In this document: piece by piece, positions 1,704-28,747 of the stretch
Layout of the letters: each line of letters opens with the position of its first letter
How positions within the stretch are numbered: position 1 is the stretch's first letter
Source of the DNA: a virus
Reading direction: 5' to 3' (one strand)
Virus record (IMG/VR): IMGVR_UViG_3300046520_000319
Location: 1 to 29,863 of that record
DNA: 29,863 nt
Program-made: the position numbers and the translations under genes
Notes under the pieces: model-generated
The model's input: only the letters and a program-made list of their open reading frames with translations
What the model was told of the DNA's origin: nothing
Database searches by the model: none

Positions 1704-1730
1704 TGTCCGGGGACACTTGATCCCCGGACA
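1704..1730. promoter_or_regulatory. 10-bp perfect inverted repeat, operator or hairpin
   Basis: TGTCCGGGGA at 1704-1713 and TCCCCGGACA at 1721-1730 are perfect inverted arms around a 7-base spacer. There is no T-run behind it, so it is not a terminator. AT-rich sequence just upstream (1692-1703) could hold a promoter -10 region, so an operator for the operon that starts with the C4-like RNA is possible. A second stem (GTCGCTG 1753-1759, CAGCGAC 1766-1772) follows. The function is not shown. Confidence 0.45.
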
Positions 1731-1806
1731 TTGAGAAGCGTACAGTTCGCCCGTCGCTGCAAATTCAGCGACCGGGCTTGGTAACCCGACATGCAAAAGG
1801 CGCAAC

Positions 1807-1840
1807 AGCGCCCATCTTCACAATTGCAGGCGCTTTTTTT
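1807..1840 (+). terminator. Possible Rho-independent terminator upstream of C4 RNA
   Basis: AGCGCC (1807-1812) can pair with GGCGCT (1829-1834), followed by a run of seven T. The loop is long (16 bases), and an alternative short stem GGCGC/GCGCC (1799-1812) competes with it. It would terminate or attenuate a transcript entering from the cos side before the C4-like RNA. Confidence 0.4.
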
Positions 1841-1861
1841 GTGCCCGCAGTTCCGTGTTAT

Positions 1862-1936
1862 GGCGGCTGTGCGTGGGAGGTCTTCGGGCCTGCCGGGTTC
1901 CTTTTGCCCCGGTTTACCAACCTACGTACAGCTGCC
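1862..1936 (+). ncRNA. c4: C4-type antisense RNA
   Basis: The sequence folds into a branched structure typical of phage C4 RNA. The closing stem pairs GGCGGCTGT (1862-1870) with ACAGCTGCC (1928-1936), with one mismatch. A second stem pairs CGTGGG (1872-1877) with CCTACG (1921-1926). Hairpin AGGTC-TTCG-GGCCT (1878-1891) has a UUCG tetraloop, and hairpin CCGGG/CCCGG lies at 1893-1912. Two segments are exactly complementary to the leader just downstream: TTACCAA (1914-1920) to TTGGTAA (1947-1953), and AGCTGCCAC (1930-1938) to GTGGCAGCT (1959-1967). In P1/P7, C4 uses two such short segments to block the leader ORF icd and so silence antirepressor ant. Here too, small ORFs and an antirepressor-like gene follow. 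The resemblance to the C4 family is from memory; no covariance search was run. Confidence 0.7.
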
Positions 1937-1986
1937 ACCCATTCGCTTGGTAACGAACGTGGCAGCTCCAGTCAGCAAAAGGAGCT
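1930..1986 (+). promoter_or_regulatory. C4 target leader with ribosome site
   Basis: AGCTGCCAC (1930-1938) and GTGGCAGCT (1959-1967) can form a hairpin, with inner TTCG/CGAA (1942-1945 with 1954-1957). The upstream arm is also the 3' strand of the C4 closing stem, so the two structures exclude each other. AGCTCC at 1964-1969 is complementary to GGAGCT at 1981-1986, which contains the Shine-Dalgarno (AAAGGAG) of the gene starting at 1992. The leader could therefore switch between open and closed ribosome-site forms. Confidence 0.55.
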
Positions 1987-1991
1987 TCACA

Positions 1992-2150
1992 ATGACCGCC
2001 CTCATTCCGTCCAAAATCCGCGCACTTGCCCATCGCCGCATGGCTCTCGCCGCGTTGCACGCCAACTCCTCCCTCGCTACCCGCCTCAAGCGCTACAACC
2101 ATCACATGCACCAGGTACGCGTTCTTGAAACGCACGGCGGTGCCGTATGA
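1992..2150 (+). CDS. 52-aa leader ORF, Icd-like position
   Basis: This is a small basic protein (52 residues, many Ala, His, Arg and Lys) that I do not recognise by family. The start is chosen because a strong AAAGGAG lies 7 bases upstream, which excludes the longer in-frame openings. The stop overlaps the next start (ATGA), so translation is likely coupled to the 68-aa gene. It is the first reading frame after the C4-type RNA, and its ribosome site is inside the predicted antisense target. That is the position of icd in the P1/P7 immI operon, where translation of icd is needed for ant expression. The analogy is positional, not based on protein similarity. Confidence 0.65.
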   Translation: MTALIPSKIRALAHRRMALAALHANSSLATRLKRYNHHMHQVRVLETHGGAV

Positions 2151-2353
2151 GAAAGCCCTACTGCCTCTCTGACGACGATCTGTTTGATTTGGAACGGGTG
2201 CGGGATTCGCTTGCCCTGGTGCATGCGCTCGCTCAGCAGGCCGACCACCCGGGCCTGTACACGCCACAGATGCTGGCCGGCTTCTTGGACCGGATCTGCG
2301 TCGACCTGGACGGTGTCATTCGCTCCGCCAACAACAACCAGCGCCGGATTTGA
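2147..2353 (+). CDS. 68-aa hypothetical protein
   Basis: An acidic, helical-looking protein with many Leu and Asp; no family is recognised. The start overlaps the stop of the preceding 52-aa gene by four bases (ATGA). The pattern of charged and hydrophobic residues looks like a real small globular protein. It sits second in the operon C4 RNA, leader ORF, this gene, BRO gene. A 23-bp palindrome separates it from the BRO gene, so the latter may also have its own control. A role in the antirepressor circuit is inferred only from position. Confidence 0.6.
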   Translation: MRKPYCLSDDDLFDLERVRDSLALVHALAQQADHPGLYTPQMLAGFLDRICVDLDGVIRSANNNQRRI

Positions 2354-2362
2354 ATCGTTAAA

Positions 2363-2385
2363 GGGTATCGGTAGTACCGATACCC
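2363..2385. promoter_or_regulatory. Perfect 23-bp palindrome, operator-like
   Basis: GGGTATCGGTA (2363-2373), a central G (2374) and TACCGATACCC (2375-2385) form a perfect 11-bp inverted repeat with a one-base centre. No T-run follows, and a one-base loop cannot form a normal hairpin, so a dimeric DNA-binding protein site is more likely than a terminator. It lies 43 bases before the BRO-family gene. A related 23-bp GGGTA...TACCC sequence lies inside that gene at 2596-2618. Confidence 0.6.
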
Positions 2386-2428
2386 CTTGGCCCACTCTTT
2401 GACGGCTTGAAGCCGGCAACCATGCATA

Positions 2429-3307
2429 GTGAGAAAAGCAATGTCGATGCCATCAGTATTTGAGTTCGAGACCCTACCCGTTCGCGTTGATACCGACGAA
2501 AAAGGCGAGACTTGGTTCGTCGCTTCTGACGTGTGCCGAGTCTTGGATATTCAGAAACCGGAAAACGCATATGTACGGTTGGATGATGACGAAAGGGGTA
2601 CCCGTACTATGGGTACCCTTGGTGGCCCCCAACAGGTGGTGATGATCAACGAAGCGGGCTTATATAGCCTGGTGCTGACGAGCAGAAAGCCCGAAGCGAA
2701 ACGATTCAAACGCTGGGTCACTCATGACGTCCTCCCATCGTTGCGTAAAACCGGCAGCTATTCCCTCGGCGAGAAGCTCACGGTCAATCAGCAGATCAGC
2801 ATGTCGAAGCATCGTCTTGGGCTGGTGAAGGAGTTGATGCGCACCCGTAATCGAACTGTGCGTGATCTGCTCGGTATCGAGATCACTAAGCTGTCCACTG
2901 CAATGGGTTTGCCGGTACCGAATCTCGAAACCATCGGCAGCGTCGAGCCTCCCCAGACAGACCTTGTTGCCGACTTCTGGGCCGCGCTCCTGCAGCTGGA
3001 CTCCAAGGGCATTGCGTACAACCACTCCAAGGACTCGCAACTGGTCGCATTGAACATGCCGCACCTGGTTGAACTGTTCGCCTCAAATAGCATTCAGGCC
3101 ATCATCAGCACCGAAGTAACGAATGCTCTGAAGCGCTGCACAGAGCCCCAATTTGTGGGAATGAAGGCGGTTGACAGCACCATTCGCAGAACCACAACGA
3201 AGTGCTGGGTTTTCAAAAAGCCGGCCCAATACCAGCTCAGTGACGAAACCAGGCCTTACCGTCTAGGTAAGCCAGCGGTAAGGGCGATAGCTTCGCTTCC
3301 TTTATAA
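2429..3307 (+). CDS. BRO-family antirepressor-like DNA-binding protein
   Basis: The N-terminal ~110 residues are a BRO-N (Bro/Ant family) domain: an F-x-F-x-x-x-P-V-R-V opening, W-F-V-A-S-D-V-C at about residues 31-38, D-D-D-E-R-G near 52-57, G-G-P-Q and I-N-E-A-G-L-Y-S-L, ending with K-R-F-K-R-W-V-T-x-x-V-L-P-S-L-R-K-T-G. These domains bind DNA and are common in phage antirepressors. The C-terminal ~175 residues are mostly helical and I do not assign them. The start is uncertain: GTG at 2429 or ATG at 2441 or 2447; none has a strong ribosome site. It is the probable output of the C4-controlled operon and may relieve the prophage repressor, which remains an inference. Confidence 0.8.
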   Translation: MRKAMSMPSVFEFETLPVRVDTDEKGETWFVASDVCRVLDIQKPENAYVRLDDDERGTRTMGTLGGPQQVVMINEAGLYSLVLTSRKPEAKRFKRWVTHDVLPSLRKTGSYSLGEKLTVNQQISMSKHRLGLVKELMRTRNRTVRDLLGIEITKLSTAMGLPVPNLETIGSVEPPQTDLVADFWAALLQLDSKGIAYNHSKDSQLVALNMPHLVELFASNSIQAIISTEVTNALKRCTEPQFVGMKAVDSTIRRTTTKCWVFKKPAQYQLSDETRPYRLGKPAVRAIASLPL

Positions 3308-3321
3308 GTGGGACACCGAAA

Positions 3322-3564
3322 ATGAGTGAGACACAAAGCAACAGCGATTCAATAACCCTGACCATTGCCACCGCTGCGGGTGTTTCTGAGAGCGAGTTTT
3401 TAACCGAGGCTGAAACGTCTGCGCTCGCTCACTTCGTGAAACGCGTCGGCTGGTTCGAGTTCAACAGCCACTCGGTAAACGAAGCTGAGGCTCACCTGGT
3501 AAAGCAGGCCGTCGATAAGCTGCAGAACGTCCTTTCACGCTCCGGCTTCGATCCGCTCTCATAG
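3322..3564 (+). CDS. 80-aa acidic hypothetical protein
   Basis: A small acidic protein with a Ser/Thr-rich N-terminus, then two amphipathic helices (from about residue 23 on). It has no cysteine pairs or membrane segment, and no family is recognised with confidence. It begins 15 bases after the BRO gene and is followed directly by a strong terminator, so it is the last gene of the C4-BRO operon. The Shine-Dalgarno is poor (GGGAC at about -12), and coupling to BRO translation is possible. Confidence 0.6.
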   Translation: MSETQSNSDSITLTIATAAGVSESEFLTEAETSALAHFVKRVGWFEFNSHSVNEAEAHLVKQAVDKLQNVLSRSGFDPLS

Positions 3565-5074: not shown

Positions 5075-5836
5075 TCACCAGTTGAAATAAACCAGCTCGT
5101 TTACTTCAATCCCACCACTGCCACCTACGGTATGCCGGAACGGCACCTCCTTCAGACGCAACCCGGCAAACACTTCGCGAATTTTCGGATGGTCACCCAC
5201 CGATATCACCATCTTCCCCCGGATCGATCGCGCCAGATCCGCCATGGCTTCGAACTGTTCAAAACCAAAATCCCCCGCGTCGTATCCAGCGGTCTCCCAG
5301 TACGGCGGATCCAGATAAAACAGCGTGTGGTTCCGATCGTACCGGCGAATGCACTCCTTCCAATCCAGATGCTCAACAGTGGTTCGTGCCAGGCGCAGAT
5401 GGGCGTCGCTGAGCTTCTCTTCGATGCGTAGCAAATTGAGTCTCGGCGCCGAAGTGGTCGCGATCCCGAAAGACCGACCTTTTGCCTTGCCGCCGAAACA
5501 CAGGTTCTGCAGATAGAAAAAGCGCGCTGCGCGCTGGATATCGGTCAGCGTGCGTGGCGCCTGCTCTTTTGCCCATGCGAACATCGTGCGGCTCACCAAT
5601 GCCCATTTGAACTGGCGCACGAACTCTTCGAGGTGATTGGCAACGATCCGATAGAGGTTCACCACCTCGCCGTCGAAGTCGTTGATCACCTCCACGCGGC
5701 TGGGCTCCTTCATAAAAAACAAGGCCGCGCCGCCGCAGAACGGCTCAACGTAGCAATCATGATCTGGAAACTCCGGCAGAATGTGTTTCGCCATGCGGCG
5801 TTTGCCGCCCATCCAAGGGAAAATCGGTGCAGACAT
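5075..5836 (-). CDS. dam: D12-class adenine-specific DNA methyltransferase
   Basis: This enzyme transfers a methyl group from S-adenosylmethionine to N6 of adenine. The order is that of Dam-type (alpha) enzymes: an N-terminal P-W-M-G-G-K-R-R motif (residues 7-14), the AdoMet-binding E-P-F-C-G-G at 31-36, N-D-F-D at 52-55, and catalytic D-P-P-Y at 176-179. The length of 253 is normal. The best-known target is GATC, but specificity cannot be read from sequence. It follows portal Q on the same strand and is probably expressed late from the P promoter. A likely role is protecting phage DNA from restriction or marking it during packaging. The start has an AAGGA site upstream. Confidence 0.92.
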   Translation of the reverse strand: MSAPIFPWMGGKRRMAKHILPEFPDHDCYVEPFCGGAALFFMKEPSRVEVINDFDGEVVNLYRIVANHLEEFVRQFKWALVSRTMFAWAKEQAPRTLTDIQRAARFFYLQNLCFGGKAKGRSFGIATTSAPRLNLLRIEEKLSDAHLRLARTTVEHLDWKECIRRYDRNHTLFYLDPPYWETAGYDAGDFGFEQFEAMADLARSIRGKMVISVGDHPKIREVFAGLRLKEVPFRHTVGGSGGIEVNELVYFNW

Positions 5837-27604: not shown

Positions 27605-27970
27605 CTACGACTTTTTTGCAGCCGCTTCGGCCAAGCCTGTAGCGACTCGGTGAACCACGATCTGATCGCCTGGACTCAGCGAACGAAAGCAGTTCAGAAC
27701 CTCATTTTCGACAGTGGTTTGTGTTCCAGCCACTGTGTCTCGCCGGCCGAAAAGAACATACATCACGTCCACGCCAATCTTCGAAATTGCCAACAGGTAA
27801 GCCGTGTCCGGTCTCTGTCGGTCGTTCTCGTAATTGCCTTGGGAGTTCCGTTTCACACCGCCTATATCTGCGAAATCGTTTTGATTGATTCCAAGCCGGT
27901 CGCGCTCTTCCCGGAGCCGCTCGCCCAAAGTTTTTTCCAAGGATTCTCCGGTTACACAAATTTTTGGCAT
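27605..27970 (-). CDS. CI-like helix-turn-helix repressor
   Basis: The prophage immunity repressor. With ATG 27970 it has 121 residues. An HTH (XRE-type) is visible from about residue 12 to 60: L-G-E-R-L-R-E-E-R-D-R-L-G-I-N-Q-N-D-F-A-D-I-G-G-V then R-N-S-Q-G-N-Y-E-N-D-R-Q-R-P-D. G-V-D-V-M-Y-V-L-F-G follows at about 71-80. There is no LexA-like S24 autopeptidase part; the C-terminal ~40 residues are helical, perhaps for dimerisation, so it should be removed by an antirepressor rather than by RecA-driven cleavage. It faces the Cro/Cox-like gene across a 64-base gap. A 67-codon upstream extension is rejected because it would cover the operator and that gene. Confidence 0.88.
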   Translation of the reverse strand: MPKICVTGESLEKTLGERLREERDRLGINQNDFADIGGVKRNSQGNYENDRQRPDTAYLLAISKIGVDVMYVLFGRRDTVAGTQTTVENEVLNCFRSLSPGDQIVVHRVATGLAEAAAKKS

Positions 27971-28034: not shown

Positions 28035-28244
28035 ATGAACACTATGCCCGTCCTCCTTACAGCCGAGCAAGCCCGCGCAGAACTTGACCGCAACGGGATA
28101 ACGATTGCCCATTTTTGCCGCGAACACGGCTTGAACAAAAATTTGGTCAGCGATTTGTTGAACGGTCGCAAGAAGGGCGTGCGAGGCGAGGCCCGACGTG
28201 CAGCTGTGCTTCTAAAAATTAAAGACGGTGTGATTCCAAATTAA
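28035..28244 (+). CDS. Cro/Cox-like DNA-binding protein
   Basis: A 69-residue basic protein with a helix-turn-helix visible at about 24-50 (I-A-H-F-C-R-E-H-G-L-N-K-N-L-V-S-D-L-L-N then G-R-K-K-G). In P2-like phages the gene divergent from the repressor switches off lysogenic transcription and may also act as excisionase. The start is ATG 28035 or ATG 28044; neither has a strong ribosome site. The stop shares one base with the next ATG (TAATG). Confidence 0.83.
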   Translation: MNTMPVLLTAEQARAELDRNGITIAHFCREHGLNKNLVSDLLNGRKKGVRGEARRAAVLLKIKDGVIPN

Positions 28245-28273
28245 TGGCATTAGGCCAGGCGAGAAACCAGAAG

Positions 28274-28747
28274 ATGAAACGCACCGTTCTAGAAACCCGC
28301 AGGCAGGTCGTAAGCGCAGTGATTTGCGCGTATCCAGGCGGTCGTGATTGCGCCGCCCCGCGCTTGGGTATGTCGGTGAAAAAGTTCGACAACCATGCCT
28401 ATGAGAACGCGGGCAGCCGACCTCTTACTGACGAGCAGATCCGCCTGTTGGAGTCACAGACTGGAACCACTCACCTTCCTGACTTCGTCTGCAACCTGTA
28501 CGGCGGTGTGTTCGTTCCGGTTGCCGAAGCCGAGCAATTGGACAACCTGGATCTGTATGCCCGCTCGATCAATACAGCGGTAAAGCGTGGCCTCGTCGAC
28601 GCGATCATTTCCAAAGCACTTCAGGACGGCGTCATCGAGGACGACGAAGTGCAGGCCATTCTTGCGGCGCACCGTGCGCACGTAGCAGCCAGACACGAAG
28701 AGATCACTGCCGTGATCGTTCTGCATCGGGAAAACCCGGGCAACTAG
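28274..28747 (+). CDS. Phage regulatory CII-family protein
   Basis: The 157-residue product (opening M-K-R-T-V-L-E-T-R-R-Q-V-V) fits the phage CII-like regulator family found in Pseudomonas P2-like phages. C-A-A-P-R-L-G-M-S-V-K-K-F-D-N-H-A-Y-E-N (about 23-42) is the conserved part, followed by R-P-L-T-D-E-Q-I-R-L-L-E. It is probably a DNA-binding regulator of early or lysogenic transcription. ATG 28244, which overlaps the preceding stop, would give 10 more residues and cannot be excluded. Confidence 0.8.
   Translation: MKRTVLETRRQVVSAVICAYPGGRDCAAPRLGMSVKKFDNHAYENAGSRPLTDEQIRLLESQTGTTHLPDFVCNLYGGVFVPVAEAEQLDNLDLYARSINTAVKRGLVDAIISKALQDGVIEDDEVQAILAAHRAHVAARHEEITAVIVLHRENPGN

Follow-up and report, generated by a model that had tools for sequence, protein, structure and literature searches.

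A probable P1 immI-type C4 RNA switch ahead of a Bro-N antirepressor gene in a P2-like Pseudomonas prophage, and its relatives in Pseudomonas genomes

The window, i.e., the whole stretch of DNA analyzed here, is a virus record of 29,863 nt (IMGVR_UViG_3300046520_000319, positions 1-29,863) in which a P2 capsid, small terminase, and portal were identified, in agreement with a sequence-only reading that had assigned it to the P2-type phages. The same reading had described, at 1862-3307, a C4 antisense RNA, a leader ORF, and an antirepressor gene arranged like the immI system of phages P1 and P7; our analysis partly confirmed this observation and supported the interpretation. At the gathering threshold, the window contains three Rfam matches, which lie next to one another: c4-a1b1 (1740-1792), isrK (1753-1840), and C4 (1856-1942). 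A 52-aa ORF and a Bro-N gene do follow the C4 RNA as described, and the module begins about 100 nt earlier than in that reading, with the a1 and b1 sites lying within an isrK-like terminated RNA. The features from the C4 RNA onward, together with the distant repressor gene, are as follows.

1856-1942, plus strand: C4 antisense RNA (Rfam RF01695, 86.2 bits against a cut-off of 45, E 6.4e-16, full length, 1-87 of 87)
1895-1907, plus strand: b' segment of C4, loop of P3, GGGTTCCTTTTGC, from complementarity
1914-1920, plus strand: a' segment of C4, TTACCAA, from complementarity
1947-1953, plus strand: a2 target, TTGGTAA, exact complement of a'
1975-1987, plus strand: b2 target, GCAAAAGGAGCTT, complement of b', including the ORF1 Shine-Dalgarno AAAGGAG
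1992-2150, plus strand: ORF1 (52 aa), at the place of icd, from the ORF list and conserved in relatives
2147-2353, plus strand: ORF2, 68 aa, its start overlapping the ORF1 stop (ATGA), with a weak XAC0095-like match below the cut-off
2441-3307, plus strand: antirepressor with an N-terminal Bro-N domain (Pfam Bro-N 2e-24; PHROG anti-repressor Ant 3.3e-48)
3322-3564, plus strand: DUF7706 small protein (Pfam PF24806)
27605-27970, minus strand: candidate for the main phage repressor (HTH_3), from a domain match

The DUF7706 gene probably belongs to the same operon as the antirepressor. The HTH_3 repressor gene adjoins a CII-like gene (28244-28744) and is the likely object of the antirepressor; judging from its family, the Bro-N protein would antagonize this repressor. 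Residues ∼112-264 of the antirepressor, its C-terminal part, match a phage primase PHROG (phrog_1139), the primase of a related phage (G005; L165, 3964-6774) ends in a similar-looking segment, and several relatives match over the C-terminal part only. An inverted repeat, GGGTATCGGTAGTACCGATACCC, lies between ORF2 and ant (∼2360-2386) and a similar repeat, GGGTACCC...GGGTACCC, within ant (∼2596-2625). Beside the portal gene there is a gene for a D12-class adenine DNA methyltransferase (5075-5836, minus strand). The sequence-only reading had put the first ORF in the place of icd, which holds for its position; homology to Icd was not detected in ORF1, which matches no Pfam or PHROG family and reaches 28% in a forced alignment. 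This bears on the possibility of an RNA toxin-antitoxin-like unit, in which ORF1 and ORF2 would be growth inhibitors like P1 Icd, C4 the RNA antitoxin, and the antirepressor secondary. P1 Icd is described as blocking cell division (PMC11897509) and many C4 modules carry a small ORF only; given that ORF1 has neither detectable Icd homology nor a toxin family match, we regard such a unit as unlikely.

The scan with the Rfam C4 covariance model, which had been suggested as a check on the reading, scored far above the cut-off. The branched RNA with a UUCG hairpin noted there is real, the hairpin being P2 of C4 in the Rfam alignment, and the fold has a computed energy of -46.9 kcal/mol. RNAs of the C4 family are processed to ∼77 nt, with RNase P acting at the 5' end. 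By analogy with P1, the mature form would span ∼1862-1939; the GG at 1862-1863 agrees in position with the 5' end of P1 C4. Two contacts had been proposed between this RNA and the leader of ORF1. The first, TTACCAA with TTGGTAA, is the true a' contact. The second, between AGCTGCCAC (1930-1938) and GTGGCAGCT (1959-1967), is exactly complementary as claimed and loses its role as the b' contact, for the segment 1930-1938 forms the 3' side of P1, the stem that closes C4; the pairing may be an extra contact. The real b' contact, absent from that reading, is 1895-1907 with 1975-1987, at the Shine-Dalgarno of ORF1, which also lies within a leader hairpin (AGCTCC 1964-1969 with GGAGCT 1980-1985). The window has the marks of RF01695, in that a' can pair with a2 and b' with b2, and the b2 site covers the Shine-Dalgarno of the ORF that follows. 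With shuffled targets for the window, pairings arose by chance at rates of 0.9% (a2, at least 7 nt), 0.24% (b2, at least 9 nt), 3.7% (a1, at least 7 nt), and 1.7% (b1, at least 8 nt), and a2 and b2 together in 0 of 5000 trials. From the sequence, the identity of the C4 RNA and its pairings appear virtually certain.

Compensatory change was sought across 134 modules (four Pseudomonas genomes contributed 119 and virus records 12, and the window, P1, and Gifsy-1 one each), and the a' and b' segments covary with both target sets, a1/b1 and a2/b2. The summed a2 and b2 pairing of a C4 RNA with its own target averaged 14.35 nt against 9.26 nt after permutation (sd 0.12, maximum 9.68 in 2000 permutations), a null that overstates independence because the modules are related. 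An a2 pairing of at least 7 nt is present in 90% of modules with their own C4 and 7% with a foreign one, and the corresponding a1 values are 95 and 10%; for b2 the own and foreign values are 69 and 7%, and for b1 59 and 13%. There are 38 distinct a' strings, several positions showing each of the four Watson-Crick types, and the combinations of a' and b' are all different within each genome (18/18, 38/38, 41/41, and 18/18). The start codon usually lies 8-9 nt past b2. The further complementarity involving the P1 strand is weak as a class, averaging 5.60 nt with own against 5.11 nt with foreign C4 and reaching at least 7 nt in 26% against 14%. While 84 of the 134 modules attain 7 + 7 nt between C4 and its own target, only 62 of 17822 foreign pairs do so, six of them within one genome. 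With foreign pairs so few and mostly between genomes, clear cross-immunity between chromosomal and prophage C4 RNAs was not found, and no general claim of it is made.

The order a1b1, C4, a2b2 (over the Shine-Dalgarno), small ORF, and antirepressor bears out the proposed likeness to P1/P7 immI (c4-icd-ant1/2), which shares the C4 family and the b2 site at the Shine-Dalgarno. In the P1 record a1, b1, C4, a2, b2, icd, and ant are annotated, the a1b1 sites as putative only, and the same Rfam models match in the same order, with isrK below the cut-off. P1 icd and ant1 overlap by ATGA, as do ORF1 and ORF2 of the window. P1 differs in being a plasmid prophage, in lacking the extra ORF before ant, and in its ANT/KilAC antirepressor, which is not homologous to the Bro-N protein over its full length; in the window neither an icd homologue nor an ant1/2 homologue with an ANT/KilAC domain was found. 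By its sequence, then, the locus is of the known C4/immI kind, differing in its antirepressor and its leader ORF. A second immunity circuit beside the main repressor, as the sequence-only reading put it, fits the P1-like order in a P2-type phage with an HTH repressor of its own. The closest deposited phage DNA is that of Pseudomonas phage phiAH14b (KU708005, 3844-4215; 77% over 19% of the query), where it is annotated merely as a hypothetical protein.

Upstream of the C4 RNA, the window carries a promoter region and a leader with the following elements.

1704-1730, no strand assigned: near-perfect inverted repeat, TGTCCGGGGAC-ACTTG-ATCCCCGGACA, a candidate operator (inferred) over the presumed -35
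1717-1746, plus strand: candidate sigma-70 promoter read from the sequence, -35 TTGATC (1717-1722), 18-nt spacer, -10 TACAGT (1741-1746)
1753-1840, plus strand: IsrK-like leader RNA (Rfam isrK RF01394) with a1, b1, and an intrinsic terminator at its end
1778-1784, plus strand: a1, TTGGTAA, in a hairpin loop, complement of C4 a'
1793-1800, plus strand: b1, GCAAAAGG, complement of C4 b'
1799-1812, plus strand: antiterminator hairpin, GGCGC (1799-1803)-AACA-GCGCC (1808-1812), computed pairing
1807-1840, plus strand: intrinsic terminator, AGCGCC (1807-1812) with GGCGCT (1829-1834), and a T-run, computed pairing

The candidate promoter is weak by consensus, falling below the scan threshold, and its location agrees with the promoters of P1 and relatives. 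The repeat over it is conserved in several relatives of the window type, and P1 has a C1 operator in the equivalent place. No further copy was found in the window (up to 2 mismatches in a half-site), including near the repressor, and for that reason it is only a candidate operator. The c4-a1b1 model (RF03163) passed its cut-off with 59.9 against 46.7 bits, and isrK passed by a narrow margin (53.8 against 50 bits).

The last two G of b1 are the first two G of the antiterminator strand GGCGC, and since GCGCC pairs either with this strand or in the terminator, the two hairpins are mutually exclusive, forming a putative three-strand attenuator. When b1 was masked as a mimic of bound C4, the computed pairing of the terminator arms rose from 0.58 to 0.998 in the window and from 0.41-0.74 to 0.99 in four relatives; this strong effect contrasts with a negligible one in P1 (0.78 to 0.79) and none in Gifsy-1 (0.999). 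Over 63 modules, masking raised terminator pairing by more than 0.1 in 27 and lowered it in six. Of 54 modules that have a terminator stem, 42 share the second strand in this way, whereas shuffling of the strand-1 region gave 9.6 (sd 2.7, maximum 18), a statistic weakened by the kinship of the modules; P1 is among them, with different letters (TGCGG/CCGCA). A T-run occurs in only 70 of the 134 modules. As a general rule for all C4 modules the attenuator was rejected, since the energy calculation does not bear it out in Gifsy-1 or P1. For modules of the window type, these computed folds make attenuation under C4 control a serious possibility, its chances falling a little short of even.

In the favored reading, transcription from a single promoter would read through the IsrK-like leader into C4, ORF1, ORF2, and the Bro-N antirepressor gene, and the C4 RNA would be cut out of the operon transcript. 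Its a' and b' segments would then pair with a2 and b2 and mask the Shine-Dalgarno of ORF1, so that ORF1 would stay untranslated and ant unexpressed, as for icd-ant in P1; with ant silent, the main HTH repressor would remain active. C4 would also pair with a1 and b1 of the leader and, because b1 is part of the antiterminator, should favor the terminator and turn the operon off. The terminated leader, being a copy of the target, could titrate C4, as the Gifsy-1 mutants described below suggest; for this decoy role we see even chances. By comparison with P1 and Gifsy-1, C4 very probably represses ORF1 and ant, and it is highly probable overall that a P1-immI-type C4 switch keeps the antirepressor of this P2-like Pseudomonas prophage silent.

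The Gifsy-1 prophage offers data on a comparable locus. At 34131-34316 (minus strand) of Gifsy-1 (L026), the isrK and C4 models match in the order seen in the window, a1, b1, a2, and b2 are present, and b2 lies at the Shine-Dalgarno of anrP. By Rfam, the "orf45"/STnc1160 of this locus is a C4 RNA and IsrK, an IsrK-type terminated RNA as in the window, is its a1b1 leader; the published IsrK mutants therefore already test this architecture. Counting the first base of the isrK match as +1, 11 of 11 checked positions carry the base expected from PMC4825925, and the 45-codon ORF is exact. The C4 RNA spans +103 to +186, which places the start of orf45 inside C4 and makes STnc1160 the C4 RNA. The mutant pairs G28A/C162U and G31A/C159U of Hershko-Shalev et al., 2016 (PMC4825925) join a1 to a', and G114/C175 belongs to the stem that closes C4. 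In that study, STnc1160/orf45' is a processed RNA of ∼80 nt, IsrK in trans raised translation of anrP 139-fold and transcription 8-fold, a' mutants were strongly derepressed, and derepression by IsrK in trans required a1 (PMC4825925). The double mutants restored silence only in part (224 and 327 against 4 units; PMC4825925), as would be expected if a2 stays mismatched. In our re-reading, the mutant data are consistent with repression by C4. Co-expression of orf45 RNA strengthened IsrK toxicity and growth arrest (PMC4825925), which is at odds with simple titration. Gifsy-1 differs from the window in that AnrP is of the ORF6N type, b2 directly precedes the antirepressor gene with no intervening ORF, and the antiterminator effect is absent.

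Hershko-Shalev et al. took orf45 as an ORF, compared the locus with P4 CI RNA, and interpreted it as a cis switch (PMC4825925). Leader and C4 region would act together as a single riboswitch-like mRNA leader with two alternative folds, which expose or hide the start of a small ORF located within the C4 region. IsrK supplied in trans would shift the fold, and a free C4 antisense RNA would be unnecessary. Native gels and structure probing accompany that interpretation (PMC4825925), and a1 and a' are able to pair in cis. Against it stand the Rfam assignment of orf45 to C4, the existence of the processed RNA, the incomplete silence of the double mutants, and above all the a2/b2 sites at the true start of the downstream gene (the anrP Shine-Dalgarno in Gifsy-1), which covary with C4 over the 134 modules; we consider a pure cis switch very unlikely. 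The C4 terms searched for are absent from the text of the 2016 paper (PMC4825925), and a literature search, with subscription journals outside its coverage, found no paper linking IsrK and C4 mechanistically. P4 CI RNA with seqA/seqC, as described in PMC4825925, is likewise a processed leader RNA that pairs up- and downstream and is linked to termination, of an RNA family different from C4.

C4 RNAs were found in 27 of 31 sampled Pseudomonas genomes, with up to 42 copies in that scan; outside Pseudomonas, within the same class, five of 113 genomes had 1-3 copies under stricter filters. The four Pseudomonas genomes of the covariation set (G001-G004) gave 19-43 C4 matches each, from which 18-41 modules were read. 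By an automatic rule, an ORF starts within 30 nt of b2 in 116 of the 134 modules, and several of the remaining 18 have a start codon on reading by eye. The largest downstream class (63) is of the DUF6124 type, as judged from its representatives, followed by an unnamed family (22) and the window type (15), with DUF3077 and Bro-N also present. As the downstream genes mostly encode DUF6124, DUF3077, and unnamed small proteins, most modules do not precede phage antirepressor genes. A literature search on DUF6124 and DUF3077 (most subscription journals outside coverage) returned nothing beyond a single mention of DUF3077. One module (G002:C99:49290-49376, L061) precedes a protein matching QslA (LasR antiactivator family, Pfam PF18226), a neighbor which suggests C4 control outside phage functions. 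Different C4 cassettes occur between shared flanks (G003:C38:139712 and G004:C71:237675; G004:C9 and G003:C34). The "Group 1" sRNAs of A. baumannii (PMC5320573) are similar in that many C4-type RNAs with variable a' occur in one genome; they are described there as stand-alone sRNAs with unidentified targets, whereas nearly all modules read in Pseudomonas have their own a1 and a2, mostly b1 and b2, and a downstream ORF.

That most Pseudomonas modules precede unrelated small genes, and that the site lies in the left, cargo-like end of the phage, would suit a decayed or cargo copy, whose RNA module is intact by descent while ORF1, ORF2, and ant no longer regulate the phage's own repressor. With an intact and conserved Bro-N gene, relatives 77-88% identical that carry the module, exact pairings throughout, and a repressor in the window, we judge decay to be quite unlikely.

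Tentatively, the Pseudomonas repertoire of up to ∼40 modules per genome may consist of mutually orthogonal, self-contained C4 switches, each an IsrK-type decoy/attenuator, an antisense RNA, and a target, controlling a small protein (DUF6124, DUF3077, and others) or a Bro-N antirepressor. Specificity cassettes would be exchangeable at fixed sites, the a1b1 sites would serve attenuation and C4 titration, and the whole would amount to an RNA-coded heteroimmunity or addiction system in which the pair known from P1 and P7 would grow to dozens of codes. What is likely to be new is the repertoire with its many codes and the proposed attenuation under antisense control, and no prior report of either was found in the literature covered (most subscription journals outside coverage). 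In essence, three separately described things are joined here, namely the C4/a1b1 sites of P1/P7, the IsrK/STnc1160 RNAs of Gifsy-1, and dispersed C4-like RNAs, and the a1b1 sites gain a testable role in attenuation and titration. The dozens of private antisense codes in one genome, each set by ∼7 + 9 nucleotides, are a natural set in which to study RNA specificity and cross-immunity between prophages.
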